Positions 56,852 to 64,000 of a stretch of DNA of 64,000 nucleotides are shown here, one piece after another. The stretch comes from Jiella avicenniae. GTDB taxonomy: Bacteria; Pseudomonadota; Alphaproteobacteria; Rhizobiales; Rhizobiaceae. The notes below the pieces were generated by a model. It was not told the origin of the DNA. It saw nothing but the letters and a program-made list of their open reading frames with translations, and made no database searches. Each line of letters starts with the position of its first letter. The first letter of the stretch is position 1. The DNA lies in contig NZ_JAJUWU010000004.1 in NCBI RefSeq assembly GCF_021390325.1, positions 124,001-188,000 on the forward strand, written 5' to 3'. Made by a program: the position numbers and the translations under genes.

Positions 56852-57121
56852 GCATCGCCGGCTGGCTGCCTGGCGAGCCTTGCGCCTCGCCCGGCGAGCG
56901 GCATGGCCATCGCGACCTTTCCGCCCCGGATCCCGCCCGCGACGCCCTCGTCGGGCCGGCCGGCCGAATCGCGGCCTGTCGAAAATTCTCAGGGTCCGGC
57001 CCGCGGGCCCGAACCGCGAGAGTGGAGCGGCCTTGCGGCCCGGCAGCCGATCACGTCTTTCTGTAGCAACTCCCGGACGCTTCTTTCGTTGGCGATGAGT
57101 GCCAGATGCGAAAGGGACGTG

Positions 57122-57289
57122 ATGCAGAAGCCGTGGTCGAAGCTCAAAATCGTGATCGTAGCGGCCGGATGCGCTTCCATCCTCGGCGGATGCGTCGCCA
57201 GCGACGGGACGGCGACACGCAACCGGGCTTCCCTGGCCGATCGCGATACGCCGTCGGGCGGCATCGTACCCGGCCAACTGCCGGATTGA
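57122..57289 (+). CDS. Small predicted lipoprotein
   Basis: This 55-residue protein has a lipoprotein signal sequence (KIVIVAAGCASILGGC, lipid-accepting Cys at residue 24) and a short mature part ending PSGGIVPGQLPD. AAGGGACGTG lies just before the ATG. The end resembles the C-terminus of the next gene. The 270 bases upstream (56852-57121) show no other gene. Function unknown. Confidence 0.6.
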   Translation: MQKPWSKLKIVIVAAGCASILGGCVASDGTATRNRASLADRDTPSGGIVPGQLPD

Positions 57290-57366
57290 GGCGCGTGTTT
57301 GCCGATATTGCCGCCGCGCTCGTCTCGATCGGCGCGAAACGCAGGGTAAATCGAAGGAATGACGAC

Positions 57367-57693
57367 ATGATCTGGAAGATTGCAGGACTGGCGGCCGCCA
57401 TGGGCGCGTCGCTGTTGCCGCAGACCAATGCCGTCCTGGCTCAGGAGTACGGAGCTCGCGTGGACAGGCCGGCCGTCGTCCTGTCGAACCGGGAGCGACG
57501 CGTCGCCTATTCCGTGCGGCTGCCCGACGGTCGGGTGGTCCGGCGAGCCGGCGGCGGCGGCATTCCCTGGTTGTACGGCCTCGGAGACGTTTATGGCAAG
57601 GCATCGGCAGTGCCGCTGGTCGACGGCTCGACGCCGTCCGTTCTCGCCTCGACCCCGTCTGGGGGGGTCGTGCCGGGACAAGAACCGCGCTGA
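57367..57693 (+). CDS. Small exported protein of unknown function
   Basis: This 108-residue protein has a signal peptide (IWKIAGLAAAMGASLLPQTNAVLAQ), a mature stretch with VAYSVRLPDGRVVRRAGGGGIPWL, and a C-terminus TPSGGVVPGQEPR that closely repeats that of the preceding lipoprotein. The start is ATG 57367 with AAGGA eight bases upstream. No family is recognised. The two genes are 77 bases apart. Confidence 0.6.
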   Translation: MIWKIAGLAAAMGASLLPQTNAVLAQEYGARVDRPAVVLSNRERRVAYSVRLPDGRVVRRAGGGGIPWLYGLGDVYGKASAVPLVDGSTPSVLASTPSGGVVPGQEPR

Positions 57694-60791: not shown

Positions 60792-61778
60792 TTGGCGGAG
60801 GAGGAGAACGGCGTCGAGGCGAAGGCGCTTTGGATCGTTGGAGAAAACCGCGCCGACCGGCGCAGCGAGGCGTCTCTGCGGCCTGGGTCGAAAGAGGTGG
60901 CGGTTGCGTCCGCTTTCGGCGCGATCAGCCGGGGGACGGAGTCGCTCGTCGCCGCCGGCGCCGTGCCGGAGAGCGAATGGGAGCGGATGCGTGCGCCGTT
61001 CCAGGAGGGGGCGTTCCCCTTTCCGGTGAAATACGGCTACGCGACGGTGGGGCGGATCGTTGCCGGGGATGCGGCGCGGAACGGCGAGTGGGTGTTCTGC
61101 CTGCATCCGCATCAGGACCGGTTCGTCGTTCCGGGGGAGGCGGCGGTGCCGGTGCCCCAGAACGTGCCGGCCAGCCGCGCGGTGCTTGCCGCCAACATGG
61201 AAACCGCGCTCAACGTCGTCTGGGATGCCGGGATTATGCCGGGCGACAAGGTCGCGGTGATCGGCGCCGGCGTCGTCGGGCTTCTGGTGGCCTATCTCGC
61301 GGGGGCAATCCCCGGGACGCAGACGACGATCGTCGACGTCAATGCCGGGCGGGCGGACGTTGCCGAGCGCCTCGGCATAGGCTTTGCGACGCCCGGCGGC
61401 GCGCCGGCGGAATGCGACGTGGTCGTGCACGCCTCGGCGAGCGAGGCGGGGCTTGCCAGCGCCATCGAGGCGGCCGGCTTCGAGGCGCGGATCGTCGAGG
61501 CGAGCTGGTATGGCGAGAGCGCGCCGACGGTCCCGCTGGGCGGCGCCTTTCACAGCCGGCGCCTGTCGCTCGTCGCCTCGCAGGTCGGCAGCGTGCCGGC
61601 GAGCCGGGCCGGGCGCTGGAGCAACCGGCGGCGGCTCGAAACGGCGCTGCGCCTGCTCGCCGATCCGCGGCTCGACGCGTTGTTCTCGGGCGAGACGGCT
61701 TTCGTCGACTTGGCCGCGCGCTATGTCGCCATCCTTCAGGATCCGGCGACCCTCTGCCATCGGGTCCGCTACGACTGA
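60792..61778 (+). CDS. Zinc-less MDR-superfamily dehydrogenase (SRGTE type)
   Basis: This 328-residue medium-chain dehydrogenase has the motif ISRGTE (about 45-50) at the position of the catalytic zinc Cys, and no GHE motif; similar SRGTE sequences occur in BchC-like dehydrogenases. The Rossmann loop is VIGAGVVGLL (about 157-166). The start is TTG 60792 with AAAGGG eight bases upstream. It heads a cluster with a pterin-synthase homologue, a glycosyltransferase and a methyltransferase; substrate unknown. Confidence 0.83.
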   Translation: MAEEENGVEAKALWIVGENRADRRSEASLRPGSKEVAVASAFGAISRGTESLVAAGAVPESEWERMRAPFQEGAFPFPVKYGYATVGRIVAGDAARNGEWVFCLHPHQDRFVVPGEAAVPVPQNVPASRAVLAANMETALNVVWDAGIMPGDKVAVIGAGVVGLLVAYLAGAIPGTQTTIVDVNAGRADVAERLGIGFATPGGAPAECDVVVHASASEAGLASAIEAAGFEARIVEASWYGESAPTVPLGGAFHSRRLSLVASQVGSVPASRAGRWSNRRRLETALRLLADPRLDALFSGETAFVDLAARYVAILQDPATLCHRVRYD

Positions 61779-61806
61779 CGAAGAGCGACGTGAGAGGAAT
61801 GCGACG

Positions 61807-62205
61807 ATGTACGCCGTCGAGGTCCGCGACCACATGATGGTCGCCCACAGCCTGCCGCGGCCGGTCTTCGGCCCGGCGCAGAAGATCCACGGCGCGACCT
61901 TCGTCGTCGACGCGGCGTTCTTCGCCGAGGAACTCGACGAGGACGGCCTCGCGGTCGACATCGGTCTGGCGAGTTCGGTCCTGAAGGCGGTTCTCGAACC
62001 GTTGAACTACCAGAATCTCGACGAGCTCGAGGTGTTTCGCGGCAAGATCACCACGACGGAGTTCCTCGCCCGGTATCTGTTCGACCGGCTGGCCGAGCGC
62101 ATCGCGGCAGGCGCGCTGGGAAAAGGCGGCGGGCGCATCTGCCGCCTGAAGGTCAGCCTGGAGGAATCCCACGTCGCACGCGGCTGGTACGAGGGCGCAT
62201 TGTGA
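61807..62205 (+). CDS. 6-pyruvoyl/6-carboxy-tetrahydropterin synthase homologue with degenerate active site
   Basis: This 132-residue protein has the T-fold of the PTPS/QueD family: VEVRDHMMVAHS (His14), KIHGATFVV (His28), ITTTEFLARYLFDRLAERI and SLEESHVARGWYEG (active-site Glu). However, the catalytic Cys before the HGH motif is absent, HGH is HGA (second zinc ligand lost), and the LDH/DH motif is LNY. So at least four catalytic or metal residues are missing. AGAGGA precedes the ATG, which follows the MDR stop by 28 bases; the 3' end overlaps the glycosyltransferase start by four. Confidence 0.85.
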   Translation: MYAVEVRDHMMVAHSLPRPVFGPAQKIHGATFVVDAAFFAEELDEDGLAVDIGLASSVLKAVLEPLNYQNLDELEVFRGKITTTEFLARYLFDRLAERIAAGALGKGGGRICRLKVSLEESHVARGWYEGAL

Positions 62206-63269
62206 GCCTGCGCCGGCTGGTCTTCGCGATCCCCGGCGATCTTTCGACGCCGAGCGGCGGCTACGGCTACGACCGCCGCCTGATCGGCGAATTGCGGCGG
62301 CTCGGCTGGGAGGTCGAGCATCTTCGCCTGCCGGACGGGTTTCCCCGACCGAGCCGCGCCGAACGCGCGGACGCTGAGGCGGCGTTCGCCGCGCTGACGG
62401 ATGGGGACCTCGTCCTCGTCGACGGCCTCGCCTTCGGGGCCATGCCGGACATCGCCGACCGGCACGCATCACGACTCCGGCTCGCCGCGCTCGTCCACCA
62501 TCCGCTGTTCCTCGAAACCGGCCTCGACCGGTCGACGCGCGAGGCGCTGGATGCGAGCGAGCGACATGCGCTTCTCGCGGCCCGGGCGGTCGTCGTGACG
62601 AGCCCGGCGACGGCCGAGACCGTGAGCGCTTCCTTCGCCGTGCCGGCCGAGCGGCTGACGGTCGCCCTGCCGGGCACGGACAAGCCGTCGCCGCCCCTGC
62701 CGGCCGGTGGACGCGGCGAGGCGCCGCCGACGATCCTGTCGATCGGCACGCTCATTCCCCGCAAGGACCATGCGACGCTGGTCGCCGCCCTCGCCGGGAT
62801 CGCCGATCTTGCCTGGCGATGCCGGATCGTCGGCAGCATGAGCGCCGATCCGGACACCGCCGAGGCCTTGCGCCGGCAGATCGAAACCCTCGGCCTTTCG
62901 GGTCGGATCGAACTCGTCGGCGCCATGGCCGATGTCGCCGCCGAATATCCGAAGGCCGATCTCTTCGTTCTCGCCAGTCGCTACGAGGGCTACGGCATGG
63001 TCTTCGCCGAGGCCCTGGCCCATGGCCTGCCGGTGGTCTTCTGCGCGGCGGGCGCGCCGCAGGACTTCATTCCGGAGGCTGCCGGTCGGCGCTTCGAGCC
63101 GGGCGATGCCGAGGGCCTCGCCGCCGCGCTTCGCGCGCTGCTCGTCGACGGGAACGCGCGCGCCGGTGCCGCAGAGGCGGCGTACGCGGCGGGGCGGGCG
63201 CTGCCCGGCTGGGACGAGACGGCGCGGATCGTCGCTGCTGCGCTGTCGCGGCTGGACGATCGCCGATGA
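62202..63269 (+). CDS. GT4-family glycosyltransferase of the pterin-synthase-like cluster
   Basis: This 355-residue GT-B enzyme has an N-terminal PGDLSTPSGGYGYDRRL nucleotide-sugar-family start and a C-terminal donor site with ILSIGTLIPRKDHATL and SRYEGYGMVFAEALAHGLP, whose two Glu (262 and 270) form the EX7E motif. It starts with GTG at a GTGA overlap with the pterin-synthase homologue and ends in an ATGA overlap with the methyltransferase, so translation is coupled. Acceptor unknown. Confidence 0.87.
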   Translation: MSLRRLVFAIPGDLSTPSGGYGYDRRLIGELRRLGWEVEHLRLPDGFPRPSRAERADAEAAFAALTDGDLVLVDGLAFGAMPDIADRHASRLRLAALVHHPLFLETGLDRSTREALDASERHALLAARAVVVTSPATAETVSASFAVPAERLTVALPGTDKPSPPLPAGGRGEAPPTILSIGTLIPRKDHATLVAALAGIADLAWRCRIVGSMSADPDTAEALRRQIETLGLSGRIELVGAMADVAAEYPKADLFVLASRYEGYGMVFAEALAHGLPVVFCAAGAPQDFIPEAAGRRFEPGDAEGLAAALRALLVDGNARAGAAEAAYAAGRALPGWDETARIVAAALSRLDDRR

Positions 63270-64000
63270 GCGGCTTCGAGCCGTCCTGGCTCGCCTTGCG
63301 GGAGCCGGCCGATCTGCGCGCCCGCGATGCCGGACTGATGCGAAAGGCCGCCGAATGGCTCGCCAGGGCGGACATGGCGCCCGTCGTCGTCGATCTCGGC
63401 TGCGGCGCCGGCTCGACGCTCGCGGCGATGCGCCCCGTCCTGCGCGCCACGGGCTGCAACGCCCGCTGGCGCCTGGTCGACGACGATCCGGCGCTTCTCG
63501 ACCTTGCGGCAAAGCGGGCGGCGGAGTTCGGTGTCGATGCCGAAACCTGCCGCGTCGACCTGTCCGACGTTGCGGCGATCCCGATCGACGACGCCCGGCT
63601 GGTCACGGCGTCGGCCCTGTTCGACCTTGCCGCGCCGGACTTCGTCTCGGCGCTTGCGGGCGACGTCGCGAAGGCGCGGGCCGCGCTCTATGCCAGCCTC
63701 AGCTATGACGGCTCGACGACGTTCGAGCCGGCTCATCCGCTCGACGGCATCGTCGTTGCCGGGTTCAACCGCCATCAGCTGCGGCCGAAAGGGCTCGGCG
63801 ATGGCCCCGCGCTCGGCCCGGCCGCCGCGCGGATGCTGGCGAAGGTCATGCGGGCAGAGGGCTACGAGGTGGACCTTGCCGAGAGCCCCTGGCGGCTCGG
63901 ACCGGAGGACGGGGGCCTCGCGGTTCGGCATGTCGACGGCATGGCCGAGGCGGTCGGCGAACTCGGCGTCCTCGACCCGGCGGAACTCGCCGGCTGGCGG
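63266..64000 (+). CDS. Class I SAM-dependent methyltransferase, partial (runs off the right edge)
   Basis: This frame gives 245 residues with no stop before the window edge. VVDLGCGAGST (about 41-51) is the SAM-binding motif I, followed by RLVDDDPALLDLA (motif II acidic residue), and LVTASALFDLAAPDFV. The substrate is unknown. The ATG overlaps the glycosyltransferase stop. Being the fourth overlapping gene, it is probably not the last of the operon. Confidence 0.85.
   Translation, partial: MSGFEPSWLALREPADLRARDAGLMRKAAEWLARADMAPVVVDLGCGAGSTLAAMRPVLRATGCNARWRLVDDDPALLDLAAKRAAEFGVDAETCRVDLSDVAAIPIDDARLVTASALFDLAAPDFVSALAGDVAKARAALYASLSYDGSTTFEPAHPLDGIVVAGFNRHQLRPKGLGDGPALGPAAARMLAKVMRAEGYEVDLAESPWRLGPEDGGLAVRHVDGMAEAVGELGVLDPAELAGWR

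Follow-up and report, generated by a model that had tools for sequence, protein, structure and literature searches.

A conserved four-gene core around a PTPS-IV protein in Jiella avicenniae and its possible role in making a pterin-like metabolite from GTP

A four-gene block kept in order among relatives

At the right end of a 64,000-nucleotide stretch of Jiella avicenniae DNA (420-kb contig NZ_JAJUWU010000004.1, positions 124,001 to 188,000; hereafter the window), four genes on the + strand encode a dehydrogenase of the medium-chain dehydrogenase/reductase (MDR) superfamily, a homologue of 6-pyruvoyltetrahydropterin synthase (PTPS), a family 4 glycosyltransferase (GT4) and a class I S-adenosylmethionine methyltransferase (MT). 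Tentatively, we read them as the core of a putative biosynthetic operon built around PTPS subfamily IV (PTPS-IV), which may yield a glycosylated and methylated pterin-like metabolite from a diaminopyrimidine derived from guanosine triphosphate (GTP); both the product and the order of the reactions are those that we infer.

A scan of genome contigs gave 204 confirmed relatives, of which the best 80 were kept (the 80 relatives below). In each of these 80 loci MDR, PTPS, GT4 and MT follow one another in this order. A sequence-only reading of the window had taken the four genes for one dedicated unit, and the kept order bears this out; unrelated genes at the equivalent positions of close relatives were looked for and seen in none of the 80 loci. 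All four genes are under purifying selection, with ratios of nonsynonymous to synonymous substitution rates (dN/dS) of 0.249 (MDR), 0.088 (PTPS), 0.276 (GT4) and 0.293 (MT) against J. pacifica, whose PTPS homologue is 94% identical, and of 0.251, 0.101, 0.36 and 0.346, respectively, against J. mangrovi. Since the order is identical in 80 of 80 loci and all four genes are under such selection, the arrangement is not a product of chance; the relatives are not independent of one another, so that the counts overstate the evidence.

The MDR gene, of the BchC-like SxGTE type (nt 60792–61778, 328 aa), opens with TTG and is followed by the PTPS gene (nt 61807–62205, 132 aa, ATG start), the GT4-type gene (nt 62202–63269, 355 aa, GTG start, with a 4-base overlap with PTPS) and the MT gene (nt 63266–64000 in the window, ATG start), which is truncated by the window end. 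The coordinates thus confirm the layout first described, namely four same-strand genes separated by 28, -4 and -4 bases, led by a TTG start and running off the window. The full MT has 273 aa and ends at window position 64087 (L007:8088), 87 bases beyond the window. The predicted TTG start of MDR is supported by a comparison with eight close loci of Jiella, Aurantimonas and Fulvimarina, six of which have ATG, GTG or TTG at the matching codon; in the remaining two, L056 has an ATG one codon later and L048 no start there.

Within the family, the full core was also present in 13 of 13 loci, made up of 12 extra loci and the own locus (L169 and L225 are the same as L042 and L044, already among the 80). 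A sample of 398 genomes of the phylum contained 27 with a PTPS of PTPS-IV type (183–216 bits), all others scoring at most 73 bits. When the own, same-genus and same-family genomes are subtracted from these 27 carriers, 24 outside-family loci are left, and 15 of them hold the full core in order; the remainder consists of six loci with MDR-PTPS-GT4, one with MDR-PTPS-MT, one with GT4 before MDR-PTPS and one with MDR-PTPS. Actinomycetes and archaea were sampled through plasmid records only, with counts that cover a subset of the plasmid matches. Six of the 11 bacterial plasmid loci carry the full core, two are without GT4, one is without a recognised MT and two have PTPS alone; the full core was found in four of eight haloarchaeal plasmid loci, several of them closely related to each other, and three lack GT4 only. 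The haloarchaeal locus L237, with PTPS split into two tblastn pieces, was not counted. Two findings limit the wider conservation claim. The core is incomplete or reordered in 9 of 24 outside-family loci and in 5 of 11 loci on bacterial plasmids, counts in which the similarity cut-off could overlook diverged methyltransferases. Among the 151 family genomes sampled, only 32 have a PTPS-IV-type protein (E < 1e-40), a further 12 weaker matches being other PTPS as judged by score. The same-genus genome G122 is without PTPS-IV. That the core is shared by Alphaproteobacteria, Gammaproteobacteria, some actinomycetes and haloarchaea, in part of the cases on plasmids, suggests that its product is useful.

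On two Streptomyces plasmids (L120 and L127) PTPS-IV stands apart from the rest of the core, next to genes for cupin and MEKHLA-domain proteins, which suggests a second context for this protein.

The PTPS-IV protein

The window PTPS matches Pfam family PF01242 with 76.7 bits, and the nearest solved structure is Streptomyces coelicolor SCO6650 (3d7j), homologous over the full length (E 2e-41). The protein was aligned in 92 rows (window, 80 relatives and 11 plasmid loci including two haloarchaeal ones), and four rhizobial QueD controls served to place the motif positions; residues are named here for the roles that we take them to have in the PTPS family. The position of the catalytic cysteine is occupied by alanine in 90 rows and by glutamate in two. 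Of the three zinc-type histidines, the first two are conserved in all 92 rows and the third is replaced by alanine in 90, histidine being found in the two haloarchaeal rows. The pterin-anchoring Glu120 is kept in 92 of 92. The PTPS had been described as degenerate from the window alone, and indeed its catalytic residues are lost and the pterin-anchor glutamate is kept. SCO6650 is alike in its HGA, missing cysteine and kept glutamate; it is reportedly without zinc and catalytic triad and of unknown function.

The motif FGPAQ is given as the signature of PTPS-IV, a subfamily of COG0720, in the available part of PMC5445326. It is present in the window protein (residues 21–25) and in 87 of the 92 rows, the exceptions being L051, L052, L120 and two haloarchaeal rows, and by this signature the window PTPS is assigned to PTPS-IV. 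Three other subfamilies were tried and rejected. QueD (PTPS-I, queuosine) has PF01242 in common with the window protein, which shows AxxxHGA instead of the CxxxHGH found in all four rhizobial QueD controls and scores 37.1 bits against a QueD cut-off of 89.25; PTPS-II and PTPS-III, with motifs CxxxxxHGH and ExxHGH, do not fit a protein without HGH. Many plasmid records annotate PTPS-IV as 6-carboxytetrahydropterin synthase with a queuosine Gene Ontology term, and the motifs contradict this annotation.

Partner genes in relatives and the link to GTP

Partner genes were counted by BLAST with queries taken from the loci, over at most 20 kb of sequence per locus, and representatives were named by profile family. 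Among the 80 relatives, RibA (GTP cyclohydrolase II) was found in 50, lying left of the block, together with a stand-alone RibD-type reductase in 53, a cytidine diphosphate (CDP)-alcohol phosphatidyltransferase in 53 and a cytochrome b in 56. Further partners are an LPG-synthase-TM protein (49), a sulfatase-like protein (53, a weak match below the Pfam cut-off), FkbM (37) and an MdoH-like protein (15); creatininase was found in none of the 80. The 24 outside-family loci gave RibD in 21, MdoH-like in 12, RibA and the CDP-alcohol transferase in 11 each and creatininase in 6, and creatininase also stands beside the core in two of six actinomycete and two of eight haloarchaeal loci. The cluster reductases examined consist of RibD_C without a deaminase domain. 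On the Microbacterium plasmid pSGAir0570_2 (L128, 59 kb), typed as mobilizable, the full core is accompanied by the CDP-alcohol transferase, the LPG-synthase-TM protein and RibD.

A cluster-type RibA (at least 49% identity) was present in 14 of the 151 family genomes, and in 13 of these 14 PTPS-IV lies at most 2.5 kb away (Fisher 2e-9 over the 151 genomes, kinship not corrected); genome G029, whose RibA is more distant (39%), was left out of this count. In two of eight haloarchaeal loci, both from Haloarcula (family checked on L130), a GTP cyclohydrolase III gene is directly upstream of MDR. A GTP-derived starting point, already considered in the sequence-only reading, is probable, since the block has RibA next to it in 50 of 80 relatives and, in two of eight haloarchaeal loci, the non-homologous GTP cyclohydrolase III. 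The most telling single clue to the starting material is that two unrelated enzymes, both opening the GTP ring, occur in matching company. The accompanying expectation that a GTP cyclohydrolase gene would follow to the right was not borne out: none was found in the approximately 12 kb examined past the window, and RibA sits on the left in the 50 relatives.

This neighbourhood is partly published already, since the available part of PMC5445326 reports PF00925 and PF01872 as neighbours of a node of 561 PTPS-IV sequences. PF00925 is labelled there as GTP cyclohydrolase I (FolE2); the Pfam name being GTP cyclohydrolase II, the published neighbour is probably RibA. The window locus differs from that account in having neither family as neighbour, and the riboflavin-pathway set of GTP cyclohydrolase II and RibD deaminase-reductase is absent from it; in relatives the PF00925 type occurs in 50 of 80 and the RibD type in 53 of 80.

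RibA and RibD-type partners are riboflavin-type enzymes, and together with the loss of catalytic residues from PTPS they would suit a product in which the ribityl-pyrimidine is retained, or a lumazine- or flavin-like one, with MDR, GT4 and MT decorating the chain or the ring and PTPS-IV only binding the heterocycle. We consider this unlikely, though with an appreciable chance of being right, given a PTPS fold that retains its pterin-anchor glutamate throughout the 92 rows and reductases without a deaminase domain, which should leave the 2-amino group of a pterin in place. Alternatively, the block might belong to an operon for a surface glycan or glycolipid, the PTPS-like protein being structural or unrelated in role. 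GT4 itself would fit, as would the LPG-synthase-TM (49 of 80), weak sulfatase-like (53 of 80) and FkbM (37 of 80) partners, the MdoH-like protein (15 of 80 and 12 of 24) and the CDP-alcohol transferase (53 of 80). However, GT4 is absent from three of eight haloarchaeal and two of 11 bacterial plasmid loci that retain MDR, PTPS and MT, and the block is often accompanied by RibD and a GTP cyclohydrolase, which makes a glycan operon decidedly improbable in our judgement.

The MdoH-like glucosyltransferase near the core (15 of 80 relatives and 12 of 24 outside-family loci, e.g., L070 and L211) often occurs without the CDP-alcohol transferase set, and such loci may represent a second variant of the final pathway step. 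A rule by which creatininase would pair with a Met-type RibA, as in the Streptomyces cyclohydrolase that we take to be of the formylamino-releasing type, was also tried and fails generally (Met with creatininase 2, Tyr with creatininase 4, Tyr without creatininase 62).

The MDR, GT4 and MT proteins

The MDR protein matched no Pfam family at E 0.001 and its best NCBIfam match, bchC, reached 42.9 bits, below the cut-off of 291.25; the fold was assigned by a structure model and Foldseek. S46, G48–E50, P106–H107 and E137 are among the residues invariant over 24 aligned rows. The structural neighbours include sorbitol, xylitol, galactitol-1-phosphate and idonate dehydrogenases, so the modelled protein would loosely fit a role in polyol oxidation. 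GT4 matches PF13692 (92.7 bits) and PF00534 (90.8 bits) and, in a search of the Protein Data Bank (PDB), GT4 structures; E262 is kept in 127 and E270 in 126 of 129 rows. MT scores 28.2 bits with PF13649 (cut-off 27) and has one weak match in a sequence search of the PDB. Modelling of the J. pacifica homologue (L040) gave a methyltransferase fold at a predicted local distance difference test (pLDDT) of 93, with generic small-molecule methyltransferases as neighbours.

A possible pathway from GTP

In the pathway that we favour, GTP cyclohydrolase II, or GTP cyclohydrolase III with a formamidase, would convert GTP to the diaminopyrimidine nucleotide substrate, and the RibD-type enzyme would reduce its ribosyl group to ribityl, giving 2,5-diamino-6-ribitylamino-pyrimidinone phosphate. 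Since none of the cluster reductases examined has a deaminase domain, the pyrimidine should retain its 2-amino group. On chemical reasoning, MDR would then oxidise the ribityl 2'-OH to the ketone that GTP cyclohydrolase I forms through rearrangement, and condensation of this ketone with the 5-amino group, in the pocket of PTPS-IV, would yield a 6-substituted, dihydroneopterin-phosphate-like dihydropterin. MDR oxidation followed by PTPS-IV ring closure is the most specific part of the proposal and its least certain step. GT4 would then add a sugar and MT a methyl group, and the CDP-alcohol transferase, where present, would connect the product to a lipid or polyol through a phosphodiester. Reduction, glycosylation and methylation are predicted from family names only. 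The window genome has neither cyclohydrolase nor reductase at the locus, and its core would take its substrate from a pool that also feeds riboflavin or folate synthesis.

Taken to its full extent, the proposal would amount to a second pterin route without GTP cyclohydrolase I, shared by bacteria and haloarchaea: GTP cyclohydrolase II or III and a RibD-type reductase would give a ribitylamino-pyrimidine, MDR would re-oxidise C2' to the ketone that GTP cyclohydrolase I obtains by Amadori rearrangement, and the degenerate PTPS would close the ring; the resulting pterin would receive a sugar and a methyl group and perhaps be attached to a lipid. In this complete form it is speculative and, in our estimate, unlikely. 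A short series of enzyme reactions starting with GTP would put the GTP-to-pterin reading to the test.

Several observations weigh against the favoured pathway. Within the examined stretch RibA is missing in 30 and RibD in 27 of the 80 relatives, and PTPS stands without the remaining core genes in two of 11 bacterial plasmid loci. Genome G052 (L251, G052:C20:168000-187999) carries a cluster-type RibA with no other queried cluster gene in 20 kb. A PF00925 search of the own genome, in which GTP cyclohydrolases I and III were not searched for, gave no intact GTP cyclohydrolase II, and its three RibD_C matches are all away from the four-gene locus. As to MDR, threonine and simple alcohol dehydrogenases rank level with the polyol dehydrogenases among its structural neighbours, and the cysteine that we take to be the usual zinc ligand is not evident in the sequence of its N-terminal domain.

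The core without RibA in the own genome and in 30 of 80 relatives, and RibA without the core in G052, would be accounted for if the core acted on dihydroneopterin of the ordinary folate route (GTP cyclohydrolase I), with the adjoining RibA and RibD serving riboflavin or raising a shared precursor. Yet in 13 of the 14 family genomes that have a cluster-type RibA this gene lies next to PTPS-IV, and haloarchaeal loci have a non-homologous enzyme for the same GTP ring opening; we therefore regard the folate route as improbable. The RibA of G052 could be a remnant of a lost cluster or have a riboflavin role.

Since the own genome carries the core only, the GTP link that we propose for it is drawn from the relatives. 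It has one PTPS and two creatininase-family genes, and its sole PF00925 match is a RibBA-like protein (L038, G000:C46:40960-44400) whose RibA half is without the cysteine cluster. In Sinorhizobium meliloti, the creatininase-family protein BrbF deformylates a GTP-derived pyrimidine and the preceding cyclohydrolase is unidentified, according to the available part of PMC9478397. By analogy, the own genome may be in a like situation.

Cofactor F420 and the closest known systems

A role of PTPS-IV in the synthesis of cofactor F420 has been stated with reference to unpublished work (PMC5041015, available part), and haloarchaea do carry a diverged PTPS-IV, the control Haloferax volcanii having the F420 ligase. 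The ligase (PF01996) and CofH were searched for in 53 carrier genomes (the own genome, the 26 from which the 80 loci come and 26 more). The ligase model, positive in three archaeal control genomes, found no match in 50 of 53 carriers including the own; it is present in three, one of them with in-frame stops. CofH was above the cut-off in two of 53 and fragmentary in a third, also ligase-bearing, with none in the own genome. From these counts, F420 is not the general purpose of PTPS-IV in these bacteria; it was rejected as product, and a link to its synthesis appears highly improbable.

Regarding known systems, the PTPS-IV accounts (PMC5445326 and PMC5041015) have FGPAQ and the PF00925/PF01872 neighbours of relatives in common with our loci, and do not mention, in the parts available, the MDR-PTPS-GT4-MT core, the CDP-alcohol transferase or the haloarchaeal version with GTP cyclohydrolase III. 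As to SCO6650, a related Streptomyces fungicidicus plasmid carries the core with a CDP-alcohol transferase, creatininase and GTP cyclohydrolase II. The archaeal and rhizobial start of riboflavin and F420 synthesis uses GTP cyclohydrolase III, the formamidase ArfB/BrbF and a pyrimidine reductase, as set out in the accessible text of PMC9478397, and the partners in relatives fall in the matching families GCH_III, Creatininase and RibD_C; unlike that start, the core adds MDR, PTPS, GT4 and MT, and the reductases examined are without a deaminase domain. The initial view that the combination had not been described stands in part: PTPS-IV had been named and its PF00925/RibD_C neighbourhood published (PMC5445326, available part), and no account of the four-gene cluster beyond that neighbourhood was found in the accessible portions of the open-access literature, PMC13118837 and PMC8305020 included.

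Surroundings of the block

On its left, the block adjoins a YifB-type ATPase gene on the opposite strand. On its right, also on the opposite strand, are a cytochrome b561-like gene and genes that, by reading of their translations, are molybdate-transport-like. Farther to the left in the window, two small open reading frames on the + strand (nt 56903–57289 and 57106–57693) have near-identical C-termini, DTPSGGIVPGQLPD and STPSGGVVPGQEPR, possibly a duplicated tail of an exported protein.

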